Shown: piece after piece, positions 9,295 to 27,782 of the stretch | Position numbering within the stretch: position 1 is the first letter of the stretch | Layout of the letters: every line of letters begins with the position of its first letter | From: Candidatus Nomurabacteria bacterium GW2011_GWA2_40_9 | GTDB taxonomy: Bacteria > Patescibacteriota > Minisyncoccia > Phycocordibacterales > UBA9973 | Direction: 5' to 3' | DNA: 35,554 bases | Assembly (NCBI GenBank): GCA_000993955.1 | Contig: LBZW01000002.1 | Span: 1 to 35,554 of the forward strand | The notes under the pieces: model-generated | Database searches by the model: none | Seen by the model: the letters and a program-made list of their open reading frames with translations, nothing else | Told to the model about the DNA's origin: nothing | Position numbers and translations under genes: made by a program

Positions 9295-9885
9295 CGATCC
9301 TAAAATCTTAGGGCTTGCATTCTTGGGGGGGATCATCCCCTCTCTGATCTGGCTGTGGTTCTGGCTCAAAGAAGAAGAAAAGAAAAAAGAACCAAAAGGA
9401 GTTCTGACAGGCGTATTTATTTTGGGTATGATAGCAGTTATTATCTTGCAGTCATAATAATACTTTACAAAAGTGCACACATAGACGAGCCAATAGACTG
9501 GCCTATATACCTGATCACTGCTGCACTCGGTTTTGCTGCCCTTGAAAATACTTTGTTTTTAATAAAACCACTCTCTCTAGGGGAAACTACTGTGAGCCTG
9601 CTCACAGGACAGCTTCGGTTCCTGGGTTCTACCCTCCTGCACAGTATATCTAGTGGTATGGTGGGTATAGCTCTCGGATTATCCTTCTACATGAGAGGAT
9701 TTGCAAAAAAAATGTATCTTTTAATGGGTCTTATTTTTGCTATCGCCTTGCATAGTGTCTTTAATTTTTTTATAATAAAGAATAGTGGAAGTGATTTTCT
9801 AAAAGTATTTGCTTTCCTTTGGGTTGTGACAGTTGTCGTAATGTTACTTTTTGAAAAATTAAGAAGAATGAGTGGAAAAAATTAA
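9284..9885 (+). pseudogene. PrsW-family intramembrane protease, split across two frames
   Basis: N-terminal part in one frame (MITNDPKILGLAFLGGIIPSLIWLWFW...VIILQ*), C-terminal part in another (LYKSAHIDEPIDWPIYLITAALGFAALENTLFL...LHSVFNFF). The expected EExxK block is missing at the frame junction. Confidence 0.65.
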
Positions 9886-9903
9886 AAATTAATTTAATTA
9901 TAA

Positions 9904-10015
9904 AATATTTTGTAATATAATTTTTGAGAGACATTGCACAGGCGGGTAGCCGAGCATAGCAAATTTTCAGCAGAAAATTATGCGTGTCTATCAAAAATTG
10001 ATATTACAAAATATT
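9904..10015. repeat. Core-plus-long-arms inverted-repeat element, copy A
   Basis: Arm AATATTTTGTAATATAATTTTTGAgAGACA (9904-9933) complementary to 9985-10015 with one mismatch and a 1-nt bulge; core TTGCACAGGCGGGTAGCCGAGCATAGCAAATTTTCAGCAGAAAATTATGCG shared with 18194-18247. Confidence 0.88.
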
Positions 10016-10024
10016 ATAAGATTT

Positions 10025-10504
10025 ATGACACAAAATAAAAAAAGGAGTTTTTTTGAAAGACTAACTGGCAGTATCGAAGCTGAAGAGGAAGAAGAATTGG
10101 AAGCAGAAACTAAAAAAGCTGGAATAAAAACAGATAAAAAAGGTGCACAAAATTGGATAGAAGAAGAAAATGAAGAAGCAGAACTAGCAGTAGATGTATA
10201 TCAGACCCCTACAGATATAGTAGTGAAAACTATGGTAGCAGGAGTACGAAATGAAGACCTAGAGCTCACCATAGCCCGCGACATGATCACCATCTCTGGT
10301 AAACGCAAAGAAGACCAGAATATAGATGAAGACAATTATTTCACCAAAGAACTCTACTGGGGTAAATTTTCTCGCACTATTCTCTTGCCCCAAGAAGTAG
10401 AACCAGAGCAAGTAGAAGCCACAGAAAAGCACGGCCTACTCACTATCAAACTCCAGAAAGTAGATAAAGAGAAGAAGAATACGGTGAAGATAAAATCTAT
10501 CTAG
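10025..10504 (+). CDS. Hsp20/alpha-crystallin small heat shock protein
   Basis: LAVDVYQTPTDIVVKTMVAGVRNEDLELTIARDMITISGKR...YFTKELYWGKFSRTILLPQEV...HGLLTIKLQK. Start MTQNKKRS preferred over 9980. Confidence 0.93.
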   Translation: MTQNKKRSFFERLTGSIEAEEEEELEAETKKAGIKTDKKGAQNWIEEENEEAELAVDVYQTPTDIVVKTMVAGVRNEDLELTIARDMITISGKRKEDQNIDEDNYFTKELYWGKFSRTILLPQEVEPEQVEATEKHGLLTIKLQKVDKEKKNTVKIKSI

Positions 10505-18148: not shown

Positions 18149-18291
18149 ACTGTGAATTACGAAACTCGTCGCAGGCGTAAGTTTTTGAGAACCTTTGCAC
18201 AGGCGGGTAGCCGAGCAAAGCAATTTTCCAGCAGGAAAATATGCGTGGTGAACAAAAACTTATGCCAAGAAAGAGTTTTGTAATTCACAGT
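18149..18291. repeat. Core-plus-long-arms inverted-repeat element, copy B
   Basis: Arm ACTGTGAATTAC...AAACTC...GGCGTAAGTTTTTG...CC (18149-18193) complementary to 18248-18291; core TTTGCACAGGCGGGTAGCCGAGCAAAGCAATTTTCCAGCAGGAAAATATGCGTG shared with copy A. Confidence 0.88.
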
Positions 18292-20171
18292 TCACTACGC
18301 ATCATCTTCAAGAATACATCTTGAGAGATATTTACCCTGCCTCTGTCTTTCATCTTTTTCTTGCCTTTTTTCTGTTTATCTAAAAGTTTATTTTTTCTGG
18401 TTATATCTCCTCCATACAGATAGCCTGTCACATCTTTTCGAAAAGCTTGAATAGTGCGAGAAGATATAATCCTGTTGTTGGCCTTGCCTTGAATTTTAGT
18501 GACAAACATTTGCCGAGGTAAAATACTGTGCAGTTTTTCTACTGCTTTTTCAGCTTCTTCTTCTACTCTCTTGGCAGACACCACCCTAGAAAAAGCAGGG
18601 ATGACTTCATCTGCTACTAGTATGTCGAGACGAGTCACATTTGCTTCCCGCATACCTTCTATCTCATAAGATATAGACCCGTATCCAGAAGAAGTACTTT
18701 TCAATTCATCAAAGAAATTACGCATAAGCTCTCGGAGGGGCATCTTTACAGATATTGATGATCTGGTATCACCAAAATTTTCTGTGTCGCCCACTTCTCC
18801 TTCATGGTCAAAGATAAGTTGCATAATATTCCCTAGATATTTTGCTGGAGTTATTATTTTTACATTCACCCAAGGCTCAAATACAGAAACTATATCATTG
18901 TCATCGGGGAAAAAATATGGTGAATAAACTTTTTCTTTTTTACCATTCTTTTTGAGGACTTCATAAGTAATAGAAGGTGTGGTTATAACTAAATTTAAAT
19001 TAAATTCACGGCGAAGTCTCTCTGTTATTATCTCCAAGTGAAGCATACCCAAGAACCCTGAGCGGAAGCCCCTACCGAGCGACCCACTGGATTCTTCTTC
19101 ATAAGAAAATGCCGAATCAGAGAGCTTTAATTTTCCGAGTGCAAGTTTTAATTCTAGAAAGTCATCTGCATCTTCTGGAAAAACAGAAGCCCATACCACA
19201 GGCAGTGGTTTAGCATAGCCTTCTATTGGTGGTACTGGGTTTTTTGACATGGTTATAGTGTCTCCAACAGAAGCTATGCCAGGCTTTTTTATGCCTGTGA
19301 CTATGTAGCCAGTATCCCCTGCTTGGAGTGAATCTCTCGGAGTTTCTTCTGGAGAAAATGTACCGACTTCGAGTGCTGTGAACTTCTCACCAGAAATTGA
19401 AAACTGAATATTGTCTCCTTTTTTTATTTTACCGTCCAAGATTCTGACAAATACGATCACACCTTTGTGATTTGAATATTTAAAATCAAATACTAATGCT
19501 CGCAACACCTCACCCGACCTCTGAGATTCGGGTCCCACCCCAAATCTCCCCTCTCCTTTCAGGAGAGGGGCACAGGGTGAGGTTGGTGAAGGAACTCTCT
19601 TGATAATTTCTTGCAAAAGATTATCCACCCCCTCTCCAGTCTTGCCTGAAACCAATAAAATTTCATCTGGATCACAATCAAGTAAATTCACAACTTCTTC
19701 TTTTACTTCTTCTATGCGGGCGAGCGGTGAGTCTATTTTTGACAATACTGGAATAATTTTGAGTCCTGCATTTCGTGCCATATTGAGTGTAGTCAGTGTC
19801 TGTGCTTGCACACCTTGAGTGCTATCTACGAGTAGTATAGAGCCCTCTACGGCCTTCAAAGCGCGTGATACCTCGTAAGAAAAATCTATGTGGCCGGGGG
19901 TGTCAATCAAATTCAGAATAAATTCTGAATTTGATTGAAGATTTAAATATTTAAATATTTCAATATTGTCCGGATGATAAATCATCCGGACGGGTTGCAT
20001 CTTGATAGTGATTCCACGCTCACGCTCGAGCTCCATAGAGTCTAGAACCTGGTCTCGCATTTTGCGCACCTCTATGGTCTTTGTAATTTCAAGCATTCTA
20101 TCCGCCAAGGTGCTCTTGCCATGGTCTATGTGCGCTATGATTGAAAAATTTCTGATGTGTTTTAAATCCAT
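18285..20171 (-). CDS. lepA: Elongation factor 4 (LepA), with palindrome-encoded extra segments
   Basis: NFSIIAHIDHGKSTLADRML, NLIDTPGHIDFSYEVSRAL, SGKTGEGVDNLL, GFRSGFLGMLHLEI, LDILVADEVIPAFSRVV. Confidence 0.96.
   Translation of the reverse strand: MDLKHIRNFSIIAHIDHGKSTLADRMLEITKTIEVRKMRDQVLDSMELERERGITIKMQPVRMIYHPDNIEIFKYLNLQSNSEFILNLIDTPGHIDFSYEVSRALKAVEGSILLVDSTQGVQAQTLTTLNMARNAGLKIIPVLSKIDSPLARIEEVKEEVVNLLDCDPDEILLVSGKTGEGVDNLLQEIIKRVPSPTSPCAPLLKGEGRFGVGPESQRSGEVLRALVFDFKYSNHKGVIVFVRILDGKIKKGDNIQFSISGEKFTALEVGTFSPEETPRDSLQAGDTGYIVTGIKKPGIASVGDTITMSKNPVPPIEGYAKPLPVVWASVFPEDADDFLELKLALGKLKLSDSAFSYEEESSGSLGRGFRSGFLGMLHLEIITERLRREFNLNLVITTPSITYEVLKKNGKKEKVYSPYFFPDDNDIVSVFEPWVNVKIITPAKYLGNIMQLIFDHEGEVGDTENFGDTRSSISVKMPLRELMRNFFDELKSTSSGYGSISYEIEGMREANVTRLDILVADEVIPAFSRVVSAKRVEEEAEKAVEKLHSILPRQMFVTKIQGKANNRIISSRTIQAFRKDVTGYLYGGDITRKNKLLDKQKKGKKKMKDRGRVNISQDVFLKMMRSEL
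19508..19582. repeat. Nested palindromic element in frame in lepA
   Basis: Outer CCTCACCC/GGGTGAGG enclosing ACCCGA..TCGGGT and CCCCTCTCCT-TTC-AGGAGAGGGG; encodes SPTSPCAPLLKGEGRFGVGPESQRSGEV. Confidence 0.85.
19903..19991. repeat. Three consecutive palindromes in lepA G-domain
   Basis: TCAATCAAATTCAGAAT-AA-ATTCTGAATTTGATTGA; AAATATTTAAATATTT; GTCCGGATGAT-AA-ATCATCCGGAC. Confidence 0.9.
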
Positions 20172-25826: not shown

Positions 25827-27782
25827 TTAAATTACAATATTAATAAGTCTGCCTTTGACATAAATTATTTTCTTTATATCTCGAGCTTCTAACAATTTTA
25901 TCACTACTTCGTTACTTAATGCAAGTTTTTCTATTTCTTCTTCTCCCGTCTCAGTATCAACCAACATCTCAGACCTAACTTTTCCGTTTACTTGTATCAT
26001 TATTTTTAATTTTTCTTCTTTTATTAAACCCTCATCCCACACTGGCCAACTAGAAAGATGAATACTTTTAGTGAGAGAACCCAAAGCAAGGCTTTGGGGA
26101 ATCAAAAGTTTCTGCCATAGCTCTTCTGCAATATGTGGTGCAAAAGGAGATAGAAGCTGGAGAAATTTTTTATAATCTTGCTCTGTCACACCAGAACCTC
26201 TCGCAAATGCGGATTCCATTTCACTAGCTAGTATCATCATAGAAGACACAGCAGTGTTAAAATGCATGCCTTCTATATCTTCTGTTACTTTTTTAATTGT
26301 TTTGTGTAAAAATTTTGATAAATGAAATTTCTGATCGGTGTAGGACCCACCCGGTAATCCGGGAAGGGTAAAGCCGGCAGAAATTTTATTTATCAAAATT
26401 TTTTGTCCTATCTTCCATACTTTTTCCAAGAATCTCCTTGGGCCGATTATACTATCTGTACTCCAATTTGCTACTTGGTCAAATGGACCGATAAACATCT
26501 CGTACAACCTCAGAGTATCTGCACCGTATGTTTTTATAATATCATCTGGATTTATTACATTCCCCCATCTTTTACTCATTTTACGCCCATCAGTAGCCAT
26601 AATAAGCCCTTGATTTACAAGTCTAGAAAACGGCTCGGAATAATTCACAACTTTTATATCATATAAAAATTTATGCCAAAACCTAGCATATATCAGGTGT
26701 CTGGTGGCATGTTCCATCCCACCGACATATAGATCCACAGGTGACCAGTATTTTTCTCTTTTTAAATCAACGAGAGCTTTTTTATTCTTAGGGTCTTCAT
26801 ACCTGAGATAATACCAAGAAGACCCTGCCCAAGAAGGCATGGTATTTGTTTCTCTTTTGGCCCTTCCTTTGCAATTCGGACATTTTGTATTTACCCATTT
26901 TGAAATAGTAGCCAGTGGACTCTCCCCTGTATCTGTCGGTTCATAATTTTTAACTTTTGGTAAAACTACAGGTAAATCCTCCTCTCTTACTGGCACGACT
27001 CCACAAGAGTCGCAGTGAATTATGGGTATAGGTTCTCCCCAATACCTCTGCCTTGAAAAGACCCAATCACGCAATTTATATACAGTCTCCCCTTTTTCAT
27101 TTACACTTTTTCCAATCCAATTTCTTTGCGATTCTTTCACAGAATCCGACCAGTCAAGACCGTCTAAATCTTTGATCAATCTATCAGCGTATTTTGTAAT
27201 AGCAAGCACCCATTGACGCATCGGGCGTTTCTCTACTGTTGCTCCACATCTCTCACATTTACCATCTTCTATGTCTTCATTTGCCAGTCCAGTTTTGTCC
27301 ACAGGACACCAATTTATCGGTTCATAAGATTCATAAGCCAGACCTTTTTTATACATTTGCAAAAATATCCATTGAGTCCATTTATAATATTCTGAGTCAG
27401 TAGTATTTACTTCTCGTGACCAGTCATAATCCACTCCCATGATCGAGAGTTGTTCTTTAAATCTTTTGACATTTTTTTTAACTGCAATCTCAGGGTGTAT
27501 TTTATTTTTCAAAGCGTATTGTTCTGCAGGTAGTCCAAAAGCATCAAAACCCATAGGATGAAGTACATTGAAATTATTCATTCTTTTAAAACGAGAATAT
27601 ACATCTGTGCCTATGTATCCTCTAGGGTGCCCCACATGAAGCCCCTCACCAGAGGGGTAAGGGAACATATCCAAAACATACATCTTCTTTTTTTCTGTCT
27701 TGTCTAAAGTTTTATAAGTATTTTTTTTATGCCATTCCTTCTGCCACTTTTTTTCTATTTTTAGATGATTATATTCTTTCAT
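25827..27782 (-). CDS. leuS: Leucyl-tRNA synthetase lacking the CP1 editing domain
   Basis: PYPSGEGLHVGHPRGYIGTDV (HIGH), NWIGKS...YKLRDWVFSRQRYWGEPIPIIHC, MPSWAGSSWYYLRY, KMSKRWGNVINPDD; NWIGKS joins YKLRDW within a few residues. Confidence 0.93.
   Translation of the reverse strand: MKEYNHLKIEKKWQKEWHKKNTYKTLDKTEKKKMYVLDMFPYPSGEGLHVGHPRGYIGTDVYSRFKRMNNFNVLHPMGFDAFGLPAEQYALKNKIHPEIAVKKNVKRFKEQLSIMGVDYDWSREVNTTDSEYYKWTQWIFLQMYKKGLAYESYEPINWCPVDKTGLANEDIEDGKCERCGATVEKRPMRQWVLAITKYADRLIKDLDGLDWSDSVKESQRNWIGKSVNEKGETVYKLRDWVFSRQRYWGEPIPIIHCDSCGVVPVREEDLPVVLPKVKNYEPTDTGESPLATISKWVNTKCPNCKGRAKRETNTMPSWAGSSWYYLRYEDPKNKKALVDLKREKYWSPVDLYVGGMEHATRHLIYARFWHKFLYDIKVVNYSEPFSRLVNQGLIMATDGRKMSKRWGNVINPDDIIKTYGADTLRLYEMFIGPFDQVANWSTDSIIGPRRFLEKVWKIGQKILINKISAGFTLPGLPGGSYTDQKFHLSKFLHKTIKKVTEDIEGMHFNTAVSSMMILASEMESAFARGSGVTEQDYKKFLQLLSPFAPHIAEELWQKLLIPQSLALGSLTKSIHLSSWPVWDEGLIKEEKLKIMIQVNGKVRSEMLVDTETGEEEIEKLALSNEVVIKLLEARDIKKIIYVKGRLINIVI
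26080..26098. repeat. CCCAAAGC-AAG-GCTTTGGG palindrome in frame in leuS
   Basis: Perfect 8-bp stem matching the elements at 2773-2806 and 17604-17633. Confidence 0.75.
26311..26400. repeat. Long-armed inverted-repeat element in frame in leuS
   Basis: AATTTTGATAAATGAAATTTCTGATCGG (26311-26338) versus CCGGCAGAAATTTTATTTATCAAAATT (26374-26400), complementary with few mismatches; core TGTAGGACCCACCCGGTAATCCGGGAAGGGTAAAG. Confidence 0.85.

Follow-up and report, generated by a model that had tools for sequence, protein, structure and literature searches.

What is the long palindrome directly ahead of an hsp20 gene in Candidatus Nomurabacteria bacterium GW2011_GWA2_40_9, and how did its two arms come to match? 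Small mobile palindromes are common in bacteria, and their origin and the matching of their arms are open questions. The window analysed here is a whole stretch of 35,554 nt (GCA_000993955.1, LBZW01000002.1, positions 1-35,554, forward strand) with two such palindromes, copy A at hsp20 and copy B at lepA (Table 1). We conclude that copy A is probably an insertion of a short, non-coding palindrome that is mobile, in which the tip and inner stem would be the functional part and the outer arms fold-back (template-switch) copies of the target.

Table 1 Positions of the two palindromes, their parts and the neighbouring genes in the window.
Feature	Position	Strand	Remark
prsW-family membrane protease gene	9355..9885	+	left of copy A; PF13367, 1.6e-20
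Copy A left arm	9896..9932	+	inner family-type arm ~9918-9932 (AATTTTTGAGAGAC); remainder is outer arm specific to the locus
Copy A tip hairpin P2	9935..9956	+	UGC/GCA, internal loop ACA/GA, GGC/GCC, loop GGGTA
Copy A tip hairpin P3	9959..9983	+	GCA-AATTTTC, loop AGCA (9969-9972), GAAAATT, bulged A (9980), TGC
Copy A right arm (GTCTATCAAAAATTGATATTACAAAATATTATAA..)	9986..10023	+	terminates immediately 5' of the hsp20 ATG (10025)
hsp20 gene	10025..10504	+	right of copy A; orthologues in 57/60 genomes of the genus
Copy B left arm	18149..18187	+	holds IS982-like terminal inverted repeat (GAATTACGAAACTCGTCG, 18154-18171)
Copy B Y-shaped core (P2 + P3)	18194..18247	+	
Copy B right arm	18253..18291	+	matching IS982-like end (GAGTTTTGTAATTC, 18273-18286); overlaps lepA stop codon 18285-18287
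lepA	18285..20171	-	right of copy B; 3' flank in relatives bears several hairpin kinds

Re-reading the window confirms both copies where a sequence-only reading had placed them, and the shared core that it described is real, given that the window has two exact occurrences of the motif CAGGCGGGTAGCCGAGCA where shuffles predict 0.01. That reading was also correct about an inner hairpin with an AGCA loop and compatible stem changes. It held the arms of A and B to be unrelated, which stands for the outer arms but not for the innermost 9-15 nt, which are a family feature (TTTTTGAGA.. / ..CAAAAA). The arms of the two copies are the longest close inverted repeats within the window, and folding z-scores against shuffles are -7.8 for copy A and -10.0 for copy B; either strand of copy A also gives a good fold as single-stranded DNA. 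Copy A is intergenic, has the inner arms of the family and lacks IS982-type ends. An intrinsic terminator calls for a T run directly behind its hairpin; on the + strand no T run comes after copy A, and T-rich sequence is found on the - strand ~10-20 nt past the stem. A blastn search with copy A, bearing on carriage by phages or plasmids, gave no match.

The element consists of a Y-shaped tip (P2 and P3), an inner stem of ~18 bp and variable outer arms of up to 46 bp. P2 reads UGC-RCA-GGC..GCC-GA-GCA, with stems that change compensatorily around a nearly invariant internal loop, and P3 carries a (C/T)AGCA(G/A) loop and a bulged A. In an alignment of 57 diverse copies, which was fitted to the structure model so that its counts are biased towards that model, two-sided changes occur at 33 of the 34 pairs, 96% of cells pair and the covariation score is 0.81, compared with 0.21 for shuffled alignments and at most 0.17 when partners are slid; sliding partners by 1-3 columns lowers pairing to 38-47% of cells. 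In an independent MAFFT alignment, made from 8 copies, two-sided changes occur at 20/34 pairs and the score is 0.52 versus 0.21. The same tip is kept in lineages whose arms differ strongly. Together with a strand-specific tolerance of G-T pairs described below, the two-sided changes support the earlier suggestion of a structured element. Tips with ~38 extra nt, giving matches of 130-131 nt, are seen at L077-L081 (G037 and G007).

Searching for the core in relatives, as had been proposed, places copies A and B among about 12 in their genome. The assembly of this genome is 75% complete and has 8 occurrences of the core motif at up to 3 mismatches; the figure of about 12 comes from a covariance model built from those 8 copies. 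With this model, 81 of 100 genomes searched contain the element: the present one, every one of the 59 congeners and 21 of the 40 from other families of the order. A broader model finds it in 20/192 genomes across the phylum. The highest count is 39 matches in G085 (broader model; these include partial matches and matches of a distant kind). The exact core is present in named Nomura-, Zambryski-, Yanofsky-, Vogel-, Portnoy- and Buchananbacteria genomes. Exact-core matches titled as a Gammaproteobacteria bin and as Pseudomonas luteola were set aside as chance, since the structure model did not match them. The sequence-only reading had recognised no named family, and none emerged here: an Rfam search of the window returned four tRNAs only above the curated threshold, the best Rfam match to copy A was a chance miRNA match far under threshold, and no description of the element was found in the open-access literature on Parcubacteria repeats. 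This is an undescribed and widespread repeat family of Parcubacteria lineages.

Copies sit in varied surroundings. Relative to flanking genes, 15 lie in the same orientation, 22 opposite, 19 between convergent and 12 between divergent genes, which is near random, and three genomes show no replication-strand bias (29 vs 31, with dnaA as the sole marker of the origin and the terminus taken to lie opposite). Open frames contain 13 of 111 copies, although some of these frames are not real genes; copies in pepN, fmt, uvrC (in this genome) and a glycosyltransferase gene are read through in frame. Close inverted pairs of copies were considered as composite transposons and rejected, with only ordinary genes lying between the copies.

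The matching of the arms is a property of each locus. The arm-shuffling test proposed earlier was applied to 96 non-redundant copies and limited to sequence outside the part covered by the search model. Own arms reach a score of at least 10 in 36/96 copies, compared with 0.8% of swapped pairs, and among copies without IS982-type arms the figures are 23/66 and 0.9%. Mismatches were counted in a split set from which IS982-type copies had been removed, because the unsplit pool counts one shared internal loop repeatedly and is misleading for the outer arms. On the core strand, the inner 18 bp hold 42 G-T and 10 A-C mismatches, whereas the outer arms hold 21 and 19 (Fisher p = 0.006, a guide only, given that copies sharing descent are not independent). 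This suggests that a fold of one strand is selected in the inner stem and not in the outer arms, with RNA and single-stranded DNA fitting alike.

Comparison of the same sites across related species shows the insertion to be present in some and absent from others at ruvC, lepA and hsp20. The gap between prsW and hsp20 is short in the congeners read (mostly 20-60 nt) and element-free. Of 30 loci in total, 23 were readable by script, and among these only the present genome has an element in the gap; a structure-model search of the gap in all 30 loci found no second copy. As read from these sequences, the insertion of copy A is private to this lineage, and its original arm cannot be told from the copied one. 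The gap in G002 contains a relic (L187) of two fused IS982-type half-arms from which the core is missing.

The ruvC locus is more informative about the origin of the arms. In 19 congeners with an empty site, the ruvC stop lies 0-24 nt from a conserved TTATCCACA box, whereas in G006, G009, G022, G023 and G037 this interval is filled, with 104-116 nt between stop and box and with the core in both orientations. In G006, G009 and G023 the far arm holds an exact inverted copy of 14, 15 and 14 nt, respectively, of that species' own ruvC end, while the best match of the same far arms to the ruvC ends of 28 other species is 8-9 nt. In G037 the inverted copy spans the last codon and the stop. The fourth locus (G022, L137) is degenerate and its inverted match is not above control. 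Given that the ruvC C-termini of filled species fit the pattern of empty species, we regard the coding end as the original and the far arm as the copy. No species read here offers both an empty and a filled site, so the making of arms at insertion is inseparable from later arm conversion. The dimorphism at ruvC, lepA and hsp20 and the inverted far arm at ruvC lend good support to the earlier idea of a mobile palindrome that gains or generates its inverted flanks. At the ruvC end of the present genome there is an unlike short palindrome (L151 in G000:C3, ACCCGGTAG..CTACCGGGT), which reaches into the TTATCCACA box.

In G085, hairpins of a distant subfamily lie behind tRNA genes (L221-L225 and L227). 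The right arm is in four cases an exact 18-24 nt copy of the 3' part of that tRNA, from the T loop, and the left arm carries a partial inverted copy. Arms in G085 resemble diverged versions of a shared arm, and arm co-evolution fits them as well as new copying does.

At the lepA 3' flank many species are empty, and the occupied ones differ in what they carry. Besides this genome, G047 and G027 carry the present element; G031 has a second kind of hairpin there, G006 and G058 share a third, and further species show other hairpins. The third kind (L242 in G006 and L240 in G058) occupies an orthologous site and has a third core type (CTTGGTAGGAG..GACGGACAGAG); between the two species, T-A is exchanged for A-T on both arms. 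The same core type is found in L048, the uvrC copy of the present genome.

The outer arms of copy B had been taken as private to the locus, which they are not, given that they contain IS982-like terminal inverted repeats common to many other copies. Ends like TTTGAATTACGAAACTCGTCG are found on copy B and on many copies from the genus and from G082, in which they flank a 266-residue DDE transposase (Pfam DDE_Tnp_1_3, 1.7e-23) whose best NCBIfam model is IS982, under the cut-off. An IS982-like element (L115) bears the same ends as the IS982-type copies. Direct repeats 7 nt long or longer, the majority with a single fixed offset, flank 21 of the 28 IS982-type copies in G082 and G031, compared with 1.7% of swapped flanks; the inspected flanks of copy B lack a clear target duplication. 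With such ends and direct repeats, the IS982-type subset is a MITE. IS982-type arms are present in 26 of 47 non-redundant congener copies, and the IS982-like transposase was found in 6/90 relatives only. No autonomous partner turned up for copies that lack IS982 ends. G031 also has 135-bp MITEs with IS982-type ends and a second core type in the same three-way layout (L125-L134, GGGGTTTCGAGGCTGTCGAGCCGAGAACTTCAGGA..AAGCTT..). Core-less relics in G002 (L187) and G082 (L118) share the joint ACTCG|CC(A/G)AGAAA(A)GAG, which looks as though a clean deletion had removed the inner hairpin.

The preferred reading of copy A would combine these observations as follows. The unit that spreads is presumed to be the tip with its inner stem. 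At insertion, or later during replication, the DNA 3' end of one arm would fold back and copy neighbouring sequence, lengthening the stem by inverted arms made locally. The same reaction would keep the arms matched and may flip the core, and if an insertion-sequence end happens to be the neighbour that is copied, the product would be a MITE that a DDE transposase could move. Two reports describe template switching between inverted-repeat arms as a process that homogenises arms, inverts the spacer, and creates and maintains hairpins (PMC8604942, PMC8794818); it would account for both core orientations at ruvC. A more far-reaching version, in which the hairpin is mobile without any transposase, its tip and inner stem inserting at replication forks or breaks and fold-back copying the target into the outer arms, is a tentative proposal that we consider rather unlikely. 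If it were true, any neighbour, whether a gene, a tRNA or an insertion-sequence end, would turn into a new inverted repeat, and there would be a route from single transposon ends to MITEs.

Two other accounts each explain part of the data. The element could be a structured RNA or single-stranded DNA that the host maintains, with little mobility and no copying of flanks, the arms staying complementary through compensatory selection alone. The strong covariation, the conserved loops, the G-T tolerance of the inner arms on one strand and the two-sided exchange in the orthologous lepA hairpin of G006 and G058 all favour such an account. However, congeners differ in presence at the same loci, orientation to genes is near random, copies lie in frame within pepN, fmt, uvrC and a glycosyltransferase gene, and arms hold inverted ruvC codons, and we regard it as unlikely. 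Quite unlikely, too, is a plain MITE family of an IS982-like insertion sequence, of which copies without clear ends would be decayed members. It would account well for the common ends, the 7-bp target duplications, the full-length IS982-like element in G082 and the sorting of more than half of the non-redundant congener copies as IS982-type, but the copies at hsp20, at ruvC and in G085 lack ends of that type and have clean, often perfect and unrelated arms, the Y tip is conserved under quite different arms, and the rarity of the transposase stands against an element found in every congener and in the present genome.

Two further readings fare worse. One-strand conservation of hairpins with bulge and loops, and strand-specific pairing, would also be expected of a REP/RAYT-type repeat on whose folded single strand an HUH (Y1) transposase acts. 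The Y1 transposase is present in 55/81 genomes with the element versus 10/19 without it, which is no association (p = 0.29), it is missing from element-bearing G077 (24 copies), G008 (19) and G052, and the absence of a replication-strand bias also counts against this reading, which is thus very improbable. That copy A lies directly 5' of the ATG of a heat-shock gene gives some appeal to a cis-regulatory 5'-UTR hairpin of hsp20, a thermosensor or stabiliser. The gap, however, is without an element in every other congener read, and other copies lie at unrelated genes in both orientations, so this role has hardly any likelihood; the claim of a conserved regulatory feature is not borne out by an insertion that is lineage-private in a family of near-random gene orientation.

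Of known systems, MITEs and palindromic repeats are nearest in kind, and the unusual part is the arms made at the locus. Copy B and many relatives share with IS982-type MITEs the terminal inverted repeats of an IS982-like element, in the relatives together with 7-bp repeats, whereas such ends are missing from copy A and from entire lineages; in addition, the present family keeps its Y core under varied arms, and the arms may invert the target. Rickettsia palindromic elements (RPE) are short palindromes across a reduced genome, some of them in frame in housekeeping genes. In-frame copies within protein genes (pepN, fmt, uvrC and a glycosyltransferase gene) are a feature that the present element has in common with RPE, but its arms vary by locus, and the likeness is one of description. 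REP/BIME repeats and CGTC- or GTAG-tagged palindromes are multi-copy, mostly intergenic and hairpin-forming (PMC3733652). The present repeats, too, are palindromes in many copies that form hairpins and lie mostly between genes, and the CGTC in copy B is incidental. A REP is a simple hairpin of 20-40 bp, however, while the present element is a ~54-nt three-way junction with arms of 18-46 bp, without a link to a Y1 transposase and without a constant tag outside the IS982-type copies. Template-switch (quasipalindrome) mutation (PMC8604942, PMC8794818) would explain matched arms, growth into neighbours and core flipping, but it is a mutational process and not an element, and leaves the conserved core and its spread unexplained.

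The family adds a widespread undescribed repeat to Parcubacteria, whose reduced genomes count as streamlined. With a stem that mirrors local sequence at several sites, these elements of Paceibacteria/Parcubacteria may show the birth of bacterial palindromes and mini-transposons. One tip occurs under many locally matched arms, and dozens of related species allow filled and empty versions of a locus to be set side by side, which opens the origin and repair of palindromes to comparative testing. The window also contains an unlike long hairpin at 26308-26403 (26-bp arms, 96% complementary, z = -10.6), which lies in frame in a leucyl-tRNA synthetase gene (25827-27782, - strand), ahead of the anticodon-binding domain.
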